Assembly (NCBI RefSeq): GCF_001613545.1
Contig: NZ_BDCO01000002.1
Span: 2,108,001-2,172,000, forward strand
From: Terrimicrobium sacchariphilum
Lineage (GTDB): Bacteria; Verrucomicrobiota; Verrucomicrobiia; Chthoniobacterales; Terrimicrobiaceae
DNA: 64,000 nt
Direction: 5' to 3'
This document shows positions 6,849-12,779 of the stretch, in pieces. The translations under genes were made by a program, and so were the position numbers. The notes below the pieces were generated by a model that saw nothing but the letters and a program-made list of their open reading frames with translations, had not been told where the DNA came from and searched no databases. Every line of letters starts with the position of its first letter. Position 1 is the first letter of the stretch.

Positions 6849-6892
6849 GATTTCGGCTAGCCGCGTCGGTGACTGCCGCTATGTTGAGGCGC

Positions 6893-7543
6893 ATGCCGAA
6901 CGTAAAATCCCTCCTTTGGGTTTTTCTTATGGTCGTAATAGGAGGGATCGCCTTTGCCCAGAATCAACCTCAACCAACTGGTTGGGTCGTGGAGGATGAC
7001 TCGGTCGGCGTGGTTCAGCCGCCCGCCATCGTGGCGCCGCAGGCTCAGCCAGCGACTCCTGCACCGCCGCCGAAATGGGCCGTTGCCGCGATGTTGTCGC
7101 TCGATCCGAAATATGCCGGCGGTATCGTCGATGTGTCGGCTTCGGGCGGGACGCCGGAGCCGAAGCAGTGGATCATTCTCGCTCGGGATACGGCCGATCA
7201 AGGTGTGCTCCACCGCATCACAGTGGCCGAGGGGCAGGTTATTTCGGATGTGCCTTCCGTGAATCTGGTCGAGAGCATGCGCCAGCGGGTTGTGATCGCT
7301 CCTCAATCGGTGCAGGTGGACTCCGGCGATGCCTATCTGGTGGTCGAGCCGATCGCGGCAGCGAGCGGCAAGATCATCGGTCATGTGGATTACTCCCTGC
7401 ATCAGGAGGCTTCCGATGCAGGGTCGGTCTGGACCTTGAACTGCTTTGACCTCGACGGTGTCTACATCGGGAAGGTCAACCTGCTCGCCTCGACGGGAAA
7501 TGTCCTTTCTTCCTCGGGATTCAAGAGCGTACAGGGGAATTGA
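6893..7543 (+). CDS. Small exported protein, lineage-specific family (paralogue of the protein at 12267-12779)
   Basis: 216 residues from the ATG at 6893 (GAGG upstream); the ATG at 6881 is also possible. Begins with a Sec signal peptide (hydrophobic helix ending in GGIAFAQ), then a Pro/Ala-rich linker to about residue 60, then a globular domain. That domain aligns with the minus-strand protein at 12267-12779: GTPEPKQWIILARD against GTPNPPQWYITALN, and VWTLNCFDLDGVYIGKVNLLASTGNVLSS against LWSIWCYDKGGSYIGFLKLLATTGTVISS (stretches at the C-termini). Lies 44 bp after the secretion ATPase on the same strand. The 3' end overlaps the convergent dehydrogenase by 23 nt. No known family recognised. 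Confidence 0.8.
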   Translation: MPNVKSLLWVFLMVVIGGIAFAQNQPQPTGWVVEDDSVGVVQPPAIVAPQAQPATPAPPPKWAVAAMLSLDPKYAGGIVDVSASGGTPEPKQWIILARDTADQGVLHRITVAEGQVISDVPSVNLVESMRQRVVIAPQSVQVDSGDAYLVVEPIAAASGKIIGHVDYSLHQEASDAGSVWTLNCFDLDGVYIGKVNLLASTGNVLSSSGFKSVQGN

Positions 7544-8541: not shown

Positions 8542-8586
8542 AAAGTGGAGCTTCGATCCGCAAGGGCAATCGTGTATGCTCGCGTA

Positions 8587-9987
8587 ATGAGTAGTGTATC
8601 CTCGCCCATTTCGACCATCGCAGCCGAACTGAAGAAGAAGCTCGGGTCGGATAACGTGATTTCCGATGCGGGTGATCTGGCGAAACTTGGCGGCGACAAA
8701 TGGTTTGCGAGCCATCAGCCGGATCTTGCGGTGTTTCCCCGCAATGCCGAGGAGGCCTCGCTCGTGATGCGGCTGTCTCATGAAAACGACATCCCAGTCA
8801 CCACACGTGGAGCGGGGTACGGGTATGTGGGCGGTTGCGTGCCGGTGCGGGGCGGGATCGTGCTGGGTGTGCGGAACCTGGCGCGCATCAAGGAGATTCA
8901 CAACACGGACTTTGTCGCGGTCGTGGAACCGGGCGTCATCACTGGTGATCTGCAGGATGCCGTGCAGGCGCAAAAGCTCTTTTATCCTCCCGATCCCGCC
9001 AGCCTGCGGGATTGCAGCATCGGAGGGAATATTGCGACCAACGCGGGCGGCCCGCGATGCCTGAAATACGGCGTGACCCGCAGCTATGTGCTTGGCCTGG
9101 AGGTTGTCCTGCCAGGGGGAGACGTGGTGCGGTGCGGCGGGCGTACGCACAAGAACAAGACAGGCTTCGACCTCGTGGGCCTCTTTTGCGGCTCGGAAGG
9201 GTTGCTTGGCGTGATCACGGAGGCGACGCTCCGGCTATTGCCTCTTCCTCCCGCGCGGGCCTCGGTGTCGGCGGGATTTGTCGACATGGCAGCGGCAGCG
9301 AAAGCTCTGCAGGCTGTTTTTGCCGAGGGGTTTCTGCCGGCGGCGCTGGAGGTGGCGGATGGGTTTACTCTCAACGCAGCACGCAATTACAAGCCGGGTG
9401 CGCATTTCCCTCCCGGCGATGCCTTGTTGCTTCTCGACCTCGATGGACAGAAGGAAAGCGTGATGAATGAGGCCAGGGTGCTCGGAAAGCTGCTGGAATC
9501 CTGCGGGTCGACCGGAGTCGAGGTTGCCACGACCGAGGAGGATCGGGAGAAAATCTGGGACCTGCGCCGCGCATTTTCACAGAGCCTCAAGGCGACGGGG
9601 TTGCGCAAGCTCAATGAAGACATCGTCGTGCCGCGTGGGCGGTTGGTCGATCTTGTGAATTTTGCCCGAGATTTGCAGGGGCGGAGCGGATTTCCCATCG
9701 CGTGCTTCGGACATGCGGGAGACGGCAATATTCACACCAACATCATGGTGGGCGATTACGATAACCCGGAGATTCGCGCCCGCGCAGATGCCGCGCTCGA
9801 CGAACTCTTTGGCCAGATCATCGCCTGGGAGGGCGCGATCACCGGCGAGCACGGCATCGGTCTTGCCAAGATGCGCTGGTGGGACAAGGCGCTCTCTGTG
9901 GAGAATCGCGCCTTGCACCAGCGGATCAAGCAGGCCGTCGACCCGAAGAACCTGCTGAATCCGGGGAAGTTTGTTTCGCTGGATTAG
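8587..9987 (+). CDS. glcD: FAD-linked oxidase, glycolate oxidase GlcD / D-lactate dehydrogenase family
   Basis: 466 residues, ATG at 8587. Oxidises an alpha-hydroxyacid such as glycolate or D-lactate, passing electrons on through FAD. The N-terminal PCMH-type FAD-binding domain (about 35-215) has TTRGAGYGYVGGCVPV and IGGNIATNAGGPRC; the C-terminal oxidase domain has the conserved FGHAGDGNIHTNI and ITGEHGIGLAKMRWW. Size matches GlcD. The usual partners GlcE and GlcF are absent nearby, so the electron acceptor is unclear and the substrate could be D-lactate or another 2-hydroxyacid. The 3' end overlaps the convergent EamA gene by 62 nt. Confidence 0.88.
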   Translation: MSSVSSPISTIAAELKKKLGSDNVISDAGDLAKLGGDKWFASHQPDLAVFPRNAEEASLVMRLSHENDIPVTTRGAGYGYVGGCVPVRGGIVLGVRNLARIKEIHNTDFVAVVEPGVITGDLQDAVQAQKLFYPPDPASLRDCSIGGNIATNAGGPRCLKYGVTRSYVLGLEVVLPGGDVVRCGGRTHKNKTGFDLVGLFCGSEGLLGVITEATLRLLPLPPARASVSAGFVDMAAAAKALQAVFAEGFLPAALEVADGFTLNAARNYKPGAHFPPGDALLLLDLDGQKESVMNEARVLGKLLESCGSTGVEVATTEEDREKIWDLRRAFSQSLKATGLRKLNEDIVVPRGRLVDLVNFARDLQGRSGFPIACFGHAGDGNIHTNIMVGDYDNPEIRARADAALDELFGQIIAWEGAITGEHGIGLAKMRWWDKALSVENRALHQRIKQAVDPKNLLNPGKFVSLD

Positions 9988-10894
9988 GCGACTCCTTAAG
10001 CAGGCTGACGCCGAGTCCTCCAACAAGCGTGAGGAGGAATCCGCCAAGCTGGGCAAAGTTGGGACGTTCTCCGAGCACGGCCCAAGCCAGAGCAAAGGTT
10101 GTCACTGGTCCCACGGTAGAGATGATGGCAAATCGCTGCGCCCCGGCGCGCTTCAGTCCGATGCTCAGGAGCAGGGCGGGAAGCACAGTGCCGAGAATGG
10201 CAAGGATCAGGCCATACCCATAGACGGCCGGCTTTTGATTCACCAGTCCTGTGATGTCGCGTGTTAGTATTTCATGGGAAAGGATGAAAACGCATGAGAA
10301 TCCCACCGCAATGCCTGTGAACCGCATCGATCCGACACGGCTGATCGTGTCGCCGCTTAGCAGAATAAATGCGCCATAGCTCACTGCGCTCGCAAAAATG
10401 AGCATCGCTCCGAAAGCGGCATGACCATTTGCGACGGGGTTGTGCATTTCTCCACCAAAGGCGGCGAGGATGCCCAGCCATGTGATGGAACTGGCCAGCC
10501 ACACGGCGGCGCGTACGGGTTTCTTCAGCACCAGCGCGGAGAAGGCGAGGAGCAGGGTGGGGTAGGTATAGAGGATGACCCGCTCCAGCCCGACGCTGAC
10601 GTATTGCAGCCCGGTGAAGTTCACGAGCGAGGAAAAGTAATACCCCACGAAGCCGAGGCCCGCGAGCTTCAACCACATCGCAGCAGTCAGCGGGGCTTGT
10701 CCTCGGGAGCCGAGGATGACCATCGCAATAAAGAAGGGCAGGGCAAAGCCCATGCGGAGCGACAGTACGGTGAGTGCGTCCGCGCCGAGAGAATAGGCGA
10801 GCTTCGCGAAGACGCTCTTTGAGCAAAATAGCACCGAGCTCATCGCCACGATGAGAAAGGTCGAGATTGCGCTGGTGGATCGGTGGGTGGTCAT
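9926..10894 (-). CDS. EamA-family (DMT superfamily) transporter, ten predicted helices
   Basis: 322 residues from the ATG at 10894. Two EamA repeats, about ten hydrophobic segments, and typical DMT signatures: SLRMGFALPFF, VGYYFSSLVNFTGLQYVS, LERVILYTYPTLLL, and GPVTTFALAWAVLGERPNFAQLGGFLL in the second half. Many such proteins export amino acids or metabolites, but the substrate cannot be read from sequence. The start has no ordinary ribosome site: the 3' arm and U-tract of a strong terminator hairpin end only 7 nt before it, and a 23-codon ORF precedes that hairpin, so expression is probably attenuated (see the regulatory entry). Confidence 0.9.
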   Translation of the reverse strand: MTTHRSTSAISTFLIVAMSSVLFCSKSVFAKLAYSLGADALTVLSLRMGFALPFFIAMVILGSRGQAPLTAAMWLKLAGLGFVGYYFSSLVNFTGLQYVSVGLERVILYTYPTLLLAFSALVLKKPVRAAVWLASSITWLGILAAFGGEMHNPVANGHAAFGAMLIFASAVSYGAFILLSGDTISRVGSMRFTGIAVGFSCVFILSHEILTRDITGLVNQKPAVYGYGLILAILGTVLPALLLSIGLKRAGAQRFAIISTVGPVTTFALAWAVLGERPNFAQLGGFLLTLVGGLGVSLLKESPNPAKQTSPDSAGSSGRRPA

Positions 10895-10900
10895 AAATAC

Positions 10901-10932
10901 GAAAAAACCCGCCTGAGTTGCCTCGGGCGGGT
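10901..10932 (-). terminator. Intrinsic terminator directly in front of the EamA transporter start
   Basis: On the minus strand ACCCGCCCGAG-GCAA-CUCAGGCGGGU forms a 10-bp stem with one C-A mismatch and a GNRA tetraloop, followed by six U (10907-10902). It ends 7 nt before the EamA ATG and 27 nt after the stop of the leader ORF, the position expected of an attenuator. It could alternatively be the ordinary terminator of the 12779-11074 operon, with EamA using a promoter I did not find. Confidence 0.85.
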
Positions 10933-10958
10933 GATGGTTGACTTGCTGGAAAAGAAAC

Positions 10959-11030
10959 TTACACGGCAATAGACCACGCTCCCGCCCGCAGGCGGAGAAT
11001 CCAGATCGTGGCTTTGCCGAGTTTCAGCAT
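10959..11030 (-). CDS. Putative 23-residue leader peptide upstream of the EamA transporter
   Basis: Minus-strand ORF, ATG at 11030, stop at 10959, encoding 23 residues with two Trp (positions 10 and 19) and the segment WILRLRAGAW. Its codons 12-17 form a hairpin: CUCCGCC (10997-10991) pairs with GGCGGGAG (10986-10979, one bulged G). Codons 15-17 also contain CGGGCGGG (10988-10981), the exact complement of CCCGCCCG (10931-10924) in the 5' arm of the downstream terminator. A ribosome paused at Trp10 would cover the first arm and free the second. The upstream ribosome-binding site is weak. Inferred from geometry; no homologue is claimed. Confidence 0.5.
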   Translation of the reverse strand: MLKLGKATIWILRLRAGAWSIAV

Positions 11031-11073: not shown

Positions 11074-11586
11074 CTAGTATTTTCTTTCTGCGGCTTTTTG
11101 CCAGCCGAGTAGAATGAAGCCAATGACCGGAAGCAGAATGTCACTCCAGAGCATGATTCCCGCATTTCCGGGAGCCATGTTGTGCTGGGTGGCAATTTGG
11201 TAAATGTGGCCTGCGGCTGCACCCCAGAGGAAGAAGGCCGGACCAATCAGGGCGGCGGCACGAAATGAGATCCTGCTCCATGTGGCAATGATGCCCACGA
11301 TGCCAAATCCCAGACTCGCGTAGCCGACCTCATACTGGAACGGGCTGTTGGCCCAACCGATGAATCGCGCCGCCATCTCTGCGAAGAAGACGTGCATCGC
11401 GAAGTTGTAAAGAAAGCTGAGGCCGACGGAGAAAAAGAGAAACCAGCCAAGAAAAATGCGAGCGGTCTCGAAGCGCTTTCTTTCCGGCGAAAGCATTGAG
11501 CATCGGATAAACGCTCCGACAATGCCGAGCACGAAGAAAGTGAGGGTGAAGTTGCTCAGGACAAAGGCGATGGCTGCTTCAATCAT
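11074..11586 (-). CDS. Integral membrane protein, DUF6790-like
   Basis: 170 residues with four or five hydrophobic helices, a short loop with SPERKRFETARIF and a basic C-terminus (GWQKAAERKY). General appearance matches small membrane proteins filed as DUF6790, an assignment I make with only moderate certainty. The start overlaps the 3' end of the DJ-1/PfpI gene by 8 nt, so it is the last gene of a three-gene minus-strand operon. No catalytic motif seen. Confidence 0.75.
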   Translation of the reverse strand: MIEAAIAFVLSNFTLTFFVLGIVGAFIRCSMLSPERKRFETARIFLGWFLFFSVGLSFLYNFAMHVFFAEMAARFIGWANSPFQYEVGYASLGFGIVGIIATWSRISFRAAALIGPAFFLWGAAAGHIYQIATQHNMAPGNAGIMLWSDILLPVIGFILLGWQKAAERKY

Positions 11587-12266: not shown

Positions 12267-12779
12267 CTAATCGCTGGAGATCACAGTGCCGGTAGTGGCG
12301 AGGAGCTTGAGGAATCCGATGTAGCTGCCGCCCTTGTCGTAGCACCAGATGGACCAGAGCGGTGCGGCGTCCTTGCCCTGCTGCTGCAGGACATAGCTTA
12401 CGCTGCTCAAGGTCTTTCCTTTTCCCCTACAGTAGCCCGCCGCAGCATTCCATGCCTCCGTCGATCCGATGCGGATCGCCCCAAGGTTTAGCGGGCTATT
12501 CTGCACTGCCGAGCGCAGATCGAGAGAGAGCTTCTCACTCGTGATCTGTCCATCCGTGATGATGATGGAGTGAATGGTGTTGCTCGCATCGGAGTTCAAT
12601 GCCGTGATGTACCACTGGGGAGGGTTGGGCGTGCCATTATCGGCAGAAAGTTTGAGTACCCCATCGCGGTATTTTTGGGGCAGGGCGTTAAGAGCAGCGA
12701 GTGCCCCTCCAGAGTCCTGTGCGGAAAGGGTGATAACGCCGGAGATCAAGACGGCAAGGAAGGGTAGGGCGGATTTCAT
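12267..12779 (-). CDS. Small exported protein, paralogue of the protein at 6893-7543
   Basis: 170 residues from the ATG at 12779; the frame extends to 13781 but that part lies opposite the hydrolase gene and is a shadow. Sec signal peptide (SALPFLAVLISGVITLSAQ), then a globular domain with two Cys (GYCRGKG and WCYDKGG). Matches the protein at 6893-7543 over roughly 130 residues, with shared blocks around GTPxPxQW, the T/SxxxGQI/V segment and the C-terminal YIGxxxLLAxTGxVxSS. First gene of a minus-strand operon with the DJ-1-like and membrane protein genes. No known domain recognised. Confidence 0.8.
   Translation of the reverse strand: MKSALPFLAVLISGVITLSAQDSGGALAALNALPQKYRDGVLKLSADNGTPNPPQWYITALNSDASNTIHSIIITDGQITSEKLSLDLRSAVQNSPLNLGAIRIGSTEAWNAAAGYCRGKGKTLSSVSYVLQQQGKDAAPLWSIWCYDKGGSYIGFLKLLATTGTVISSD

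Follow-up and report, generated by a model that had tools for sequence, protein, structure and literature searches.

Layout of the leader region

The window, that is, the whole 64,000-nucleotide stretch of Terrimicrobium sacchariphilum DNA analysed here, carries on its minus strand a DUF6790 gene that ends at 11074, followed by a leader region and then by a gene for an EamA transporter. The initial annotation had described in this leader a 23-codon ORF and a terminator hairpin with six U residues shortly before the transporter ATG, and we found both exactly where it had placed them. The features of the region, all on the minus strand, are as follows:

11030-10959, minus strand: leader ORF of 23 codons, encoding MLKLGKATIWILRLRAGAWSIAV and a stop; start, stop and Trp codon kept in two congeneric genomes, counterparts in 20 orthologs
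11019-10964, minus strand: long leader hairpin whose tip is the protector; -26 kcal/mol in the minimum free energy (MFE) fold, spanning most of the ORF
11003-11001, minus strand: codon 10, a UGG (Trp) codon with a putative regulatory role, where the ribosome is presumed to stall; in-frame motif in 19 of 20 orthologs, at about the last stall position that would spare the antiterminator
10997-10991 with 10988-10981, minus strand: protector arms 1 and 2, respectively, in the MFE fold
10994-10920, minus strand: predicted antiterminator (2:3) of the stalled-ribosome state; MFE structure of the RNA that a ribosome with Trp10 in the A-site leaves free, -33 kcal/mol with the intervening stems counted in
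10988-10972, minus strand: arm 2, CGGGCGGGAGCGUGGUC, the 5' strand of the antiterminator; pairs with the terminator 5' arm at -31 kcal/mol, z = -4.5
10932-10902, minus strand: intrinsic terminator (3:4) with U6 at 10907-10902; -18.4 to -18.9 kcal/mol, z = -5 against shuffles
10894-9926, minus strand: EamA/DMT-family transporter gene, the presumed controlled gene; Pfam PF00892, E 1.4e-26

The terminator ends 7 nt before the EamA ATG at 10894. Within the ORF, codons 12-14 contain CUCCGCC (10997-10991), and codons 15-17 contain CGGGCGGG (10988-10981), which we verified to be the exact complement of CCCGCCCG in the terminator 5' arm (10931-10924). The protector pairing that had been proposed between these two ORF segments is present, but merely as the tip of the longer hairpin, and the antiterminator, whose 8-bp core is exact, reaches beyond those 8 bp through an outer GUGGU:ACCAU and an inner GCC:GGC pairing. 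The entire 131-nt leader folds with z = -3.9. The complementarity between leader and terminator is not due to chance, because it exceeds that of dinucleotide shuffles (z = -4.5) and the leader is conserved above the third codon positions of EamA. The leader ATG in the window lacks an evident Shine-Dalgarno sequence, and a search for a promoter of the leader-EamA unit identified none. We also considered a mobile or REP-like repeat, which was rejected, the leader being single-copy in its own genome.

Conservation of the leader within and between genera

The ORF, the Trp codons, the stop codon (TAA/TAA/TAG), arms 2 and 3 and the terminator are all conserved in two genomes of the same genus, Spartobacteria bacterium LR76 and the SCN18 MAG. 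Identity over the leader ORF is 97% and 94% in these two genomes, versus 87% and 69% at the third codon positions of EamA, and the 43 nt immediately upstream of the ORF are 77% identical within the genus. Three of the changes in the leader ORF are amino-acid replacements and therefore give no codon-level purifying signal inside the genus, so that the sequence conserved there could be that of the RNA as much as that of the peptide.

Beyond the genus, protein searches returned 20 EamA orthologs from 12 genera (window included), all with usable upstream sequence, whose proteins are 37-96% identical to that of the window or to a near relative. Ahead of EamA, all 20 have a short ORF of 20-38 codons followed by an intrinsic terminator, the ORF of G896 being doubtful and the terminator site of G810 having been set by hand; start codons of the ortholog leaders were assigned by us, with G033 and G275 (both GTG) and G795 (TTG) less certain. 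The motif (L/I/S)W(L/I/V/R) occurs in frame in 19 of the 20 leader ORFs; in the other two frames the counts are 0 and 1. At least 11 genera of Verrucomicrobiota thus have a leader ORF with a Trp codon and an overridable terminator before this transporter gene, and the small ORF proposed in the initial annotation is conserved with its Trp codon in 19 of 20 orthologs. Examples of the leader peptides are:

G094: MAKRIKALLWIGGLPGPARRVFVV
G043: MAKRIPLLIWLVGPLGPARRNFALA
G815: MRAIAAIIISVTRLWLIKPDGRSGDAVMR
G873: MSPVVTRPKWQHRWLWLLKPKGAVVK
G863: MLRSRSLRPAAWLWIIQSAGFCGRTTRY
G724: MIRIASATLLNLLLWLRPVGRNVRAID
G934: MTSFPPSHRKELLLWLDQMAGAKRVSG

Outside the W motif the peptides are dissimilar, the leaders do not align between genera, and each leader holds one to three non-adjacent Trp codons, mostly one or two. 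At the G896 locus (L061) the terminator is present and the leader ORF lacks Trp (MKRGFIRALIAGDGPLGNLAI); this leader is possibly degenerate or differently placed. In the loci read, the Leu codon before Trp is CTC or CTT. At L045, L053, L054, L057 and L058, unlike in the window, the Trp codon forms part of the 5' arm of a small, nearly perfect hairpin, for example CTTTGG-ATTA-TCCAAAG in L057.

The distant EamA relatives L046 and L049 (family f19, 35-37% identity) have no leader, the gene following directly on the upstream ORF. EamA relatives on proteobacterial plasmids (Vitreoscilla, Acinetobacter and Azospirillum; 34-41% identity) show no recognisable leader in the 160 nt upstream, and further family searches returned no new orthologs. 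Leader DNA matches in G007 and G051 were rejected as extra cases, since they are short and show no leader architecture. A scan of 0.8 Mb of strand sequence, covering 460 long-ORF starts, found the combined signature only at the four EamA loci included in it; this serves as a check of specificity and not as an independent test because the motif had been defined from the same loci.

Antiterminator pairing across genera

Next, we compared the pairing of the leader with its terminator to that of dinucleotide shuffles. In nearly every locus the duplex of the terminator 5' arm with the region from the Trp codon to the end of the ORF is stronger than in the shuffles, with per-locus z-scores of -4.5 in the window, -4.2 in G815, -3.0 in G848, -3.0 in G795, -2.8 in G863 and about 0 in G094. 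With one representative per genus, the duplex between the leader after Trp and the terminator 5' arm reaches p = 9e-9 (Fisher), while the same test on control regions gives p = 0.1 for the 60 nt upstream of the ORF and p = 0.99 for the stretch from start to Trp. The complementarity is weaker in the g13 and g303 genera, and G094 shows no excess. Furthermore, leaders pair with their own terminators (-24.2) better than with those of other genera (-20.0; p = 1.5e-4), and this, together with the complementarity above shuffles, indicates that the pairing has been re-formed between genera with different sequences. The initial annotation had named covariation of the stems as a check; within the genus too few positions differ, and no compensation of single bases was observed.

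Folding with the ribosome at successive positions

We modelled the ribosome by letting the free RNA start 12 nt past the first base of the A-site codon and computing equilibrium folds. In the window, with the A-site at Trp10, the antiterminator is favoured and the probability of the terminator falls to 0.29, in agreement with the earlier proposal that a ribosome paused at this codon would cover arm 1. With the ribosome at the stop codon the terminator is freed (P = 0.99), and with no ribosome the protector and the terminator form. The mutual exclusion of protector, antiterminator and terminator that had been put forward is reproduced in these folds, and the three-state behaviour that they predict is that of a classical attenuator.

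When the ribosome was moved along each ORF, the antiterminator pairing stayed high up to the Trp codon and dropped past it. The switch point lies 0-4 codons past Trp in 11 of 19 loci and before Trp in none of the 19, and the mean distance from Trp to the switch is 4.0 codons, compared with 7.3 for random codon positions (p = 0.008, in silico). The model thus places the Trp codon close to the furthest position where stalling would still allow read-through. In about half of the orthologs the equilibrium probability of the terminator is still close to 1 at the Trp position, and a kinetic, co-transcriptional advantage of the earlier-formed antiterminator must therefore be assumed for them. Such an advantage is also assumed for known attenuators.

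Proposed mechanism and signal

We consider it likely that the EamA gene is under the control of a ribosome-mediated transcription attenuator in this region, as had been suggested for the window; across the 20 orthologs of 12 genera the leader is kept and the alternative stems are preserved, and in several genera the upstream gene is divergent. Because a leader with a Trp codon and a terminator precede the same gene in so many genera, the transporter is probably switched on by ribosome stalling in the leader, with lack of tryptophan as the most likely cause. RNA polymerase would transcribe the leader while a ribosome translates the 23-codon ORF, and the ribosome would pause with the UGG of codon 10 in its A-site, most likely from scarcity of charged tRNA-Trp. 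The paused ribosome would cover arm 1 and leave arm 2 (codons 15-20) exposed; arm 2 would then pair with the terminator 5' arm, so that the antiterminator would form in place of the terminator and EamA would be transcribed. A ribosome that reaches the stop codon would instead cover arm 2, allowing the terminator to form and transcription to end just short of the EamA start, and with no ribosome the leader would fold on itself and the terminator would form too.

The comparisons support, at the level of sequence, the existence of the ORF, its alternative pairings and their conservation, as well as the placement of the Trp codon, and from them we infer that the leader is translated and that ribosomes stall at this codon. 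Trp-tRNA is the likely signal, its scarcity being the simplest reading because a near-invariant Trp codon stands at the decision point, and the transporter may serve tryptophan or a Trp-related compound. Against this signal stand the lack of tandem Trp codons and the Leu/Ile neighbours found almost everywhere. Upstream regions of trpE in the same genomes (14 loci) hold no comparable leader, and a Trp regulon is therefore not corroborated. We consider it somewhat more likely than not that this is a Verrucomicrobiota-wide attenuator in which a single Leu/Ile-Trp-Leu/Ile site senses tryptophan supply and controls a DMT transporter, which would point to a clade of transporters for tryptophan or its derivatives whose regulation is independent of the trp biosynthetic genes.

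Alternative explanations

The hairpin could be the ordinary terminator of the upstream DUF6790 operon (12779-11074), standing before EamA by chance and with the ORF a chance frame, as the initial annotation had itself allowed; in the window DUF6790 does lie upstream of the leader on the same strand. We regard this as extremely improbable, since the ORF and terminator persist in other genera while the upstream genes differ and diverge. Judged from their translations, the upstream neighbours are an opposite-strand murI in G033 and G043 and an opposite-strand bioD-like gene in G275; G815, G753 and G848 have other unrelated genes there, most of them likewise on the opposite strand. The terminator therefore serves no upstream operon and the unit travels with EamA; at least where the upstream gene runs on the opposite strand, the leader-EamA unit needs a promoter of its own. 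The conservation of the leader and the antiterminator statistics likewise contradict an operon terminator. If the leader does attenuate, the stall could in principle come from the nascent peptide, as in SecM or TnaC, with the conserved Trp acting in the exit tunnel, and the W-I...R-A-G of the window peptide bears what we take to be a superficial resemblance to the SecM motif. This is very doubtful: an arrest would be expected about 8-12 codons past Trp, where the ribosome would cover arm 2 and the terminator would form in most loci, and the residues beyond LW(L/I) are not conserved.

The sensed amino acid might also be leucine or isoleucine, or the whole Leu-Trp-Leu/Ile run, given that Leu or Ile adjoins Trp almost everywhere and that several leaders have runs such as LLL or IIII, among them LLLWL in G724 and G934, IIIITKLSWL in G275 and AAIIISVTRLWLI in G815. 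As these are common residues whose runs are not shared, and near-invariance is limited to Trp, we judge this improbable. The main rival to sensing of Trp-tRNA is an attenuator that responds to slowed or antibiotic-blocked translation in general, with EamA as an efflux pump. The RNA evidence would be identical, EamA/DMT proteins include exporters, and a single Trp codon makes a weaker sensor than a tandem run; moreover, the bmrB-bmrCD leader of Bacillus subtilis sets a precedent, in which a multidrug transporter is induced by ribosome-targeting antibiotics through a leader peptide and three alternative stem-loops (PMC4191407). A general stall sensor, however, needs no near-invariant Trp codon at the switch point, and we hold this explanation to be unlikely, leaving Trp-tRNA scarcity as the preferred signal.

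Relation to known systems

With classical trp attenuators (trpL of E. coli and the trp leaders of Corynebacterium and Streptomyces; PMC1262725), the leader shares a short ORF with Trp codons, the exclusion among protector, antiterminator and terminator, and a terminator before the structural gene. The known trp leaders carry tandem UGG codons (PMC1262725), whereas here the Trp codons are non-adjacent and in a Leu/Ile-Trp-Leu/Ile context, the target is a DMT/EamA transporter in place of trp biosynthesis, and the host phylum is Verrucomicrobiota. Membership in the homologous trp-operon attenuator family was rejected, there being no tandem Trp codons, the gene being EamA and trpE (14 loci) being without the leader. 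The bmrB-bmrCD leader likewise uses a leader ORF and three alternative stem-loops for ribosome-mediated transcription attenuation of a transporter gene, and demonstrates that control of a transporter by stalled translation is possible in general (PMC4191407); there the target is an ABC multidrug transporter with an antibiotic-induced leader of 53 residues, whereas here the leader is shorter, has a conserved Trp codon and precedes a DMT transporter. A T-box was rejected, no covariance model for it matching in the window or in 14 ortholog loci, and Rfam gave no match in the same sequences except tRNAs.

YcbK of Bacillus subtilis is of the EamA/DMT type. With rtpA(yczA)-ycbK it sets a precedent for a transporter, here a putative efflux protein, in a Trp-responsive regulon controlled by TRAP (PMC11255114; Yakhnin 2006, as cited in PMC3971595), there by a T-box for anti-TRAP and a TRAP block of ycbK translation, in contrast to the leader-peptide terminator switch proposed here. 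Leader-peptide attenuation has been described mainly in Proteobacteria and Actinobacteria, and in a few cases in Firmicutes, from which a his example was added in 2010 (PMC2965389). Our search of literature available without subscription returned no paper joining EamA with an attenuator or leader peptide, none joining the DMT superfamily, T-box and tryptophan, and no description of a leader-peptide attenuator for Verrucomicrobiota. The proposed mechanism is classical, and what appears to be new is the phylum and the target, a DMT/EamA transporter being unexpected. The proposed unit would add a conserved leader-peptide attenuator for Verrucomicrobiota, tie a transporter clade to a specific, testable signal (Trp-tRNA) and offer a substrate hypothesis for a DMT transporter that lies beyond the reach of sequence similarity alone.

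Neighbouring genes

The window EamA protein has no sequence match among solved structures. Its gene overlaps at the 3' end, by about 62 bp (9926-9987), with a convergent FAD-linked oxidase gene on the plus strand (8545-9987). Two small putative secreted proteins, encoded at 6869-7543 (plus strand) and 12267-12779 (minus strand; no Pfam match), flank the leader region. They are alike by eye, both carrying GTPxPxQW and C-terminal YIGxxxLLATTGxVxSS-like stretches.
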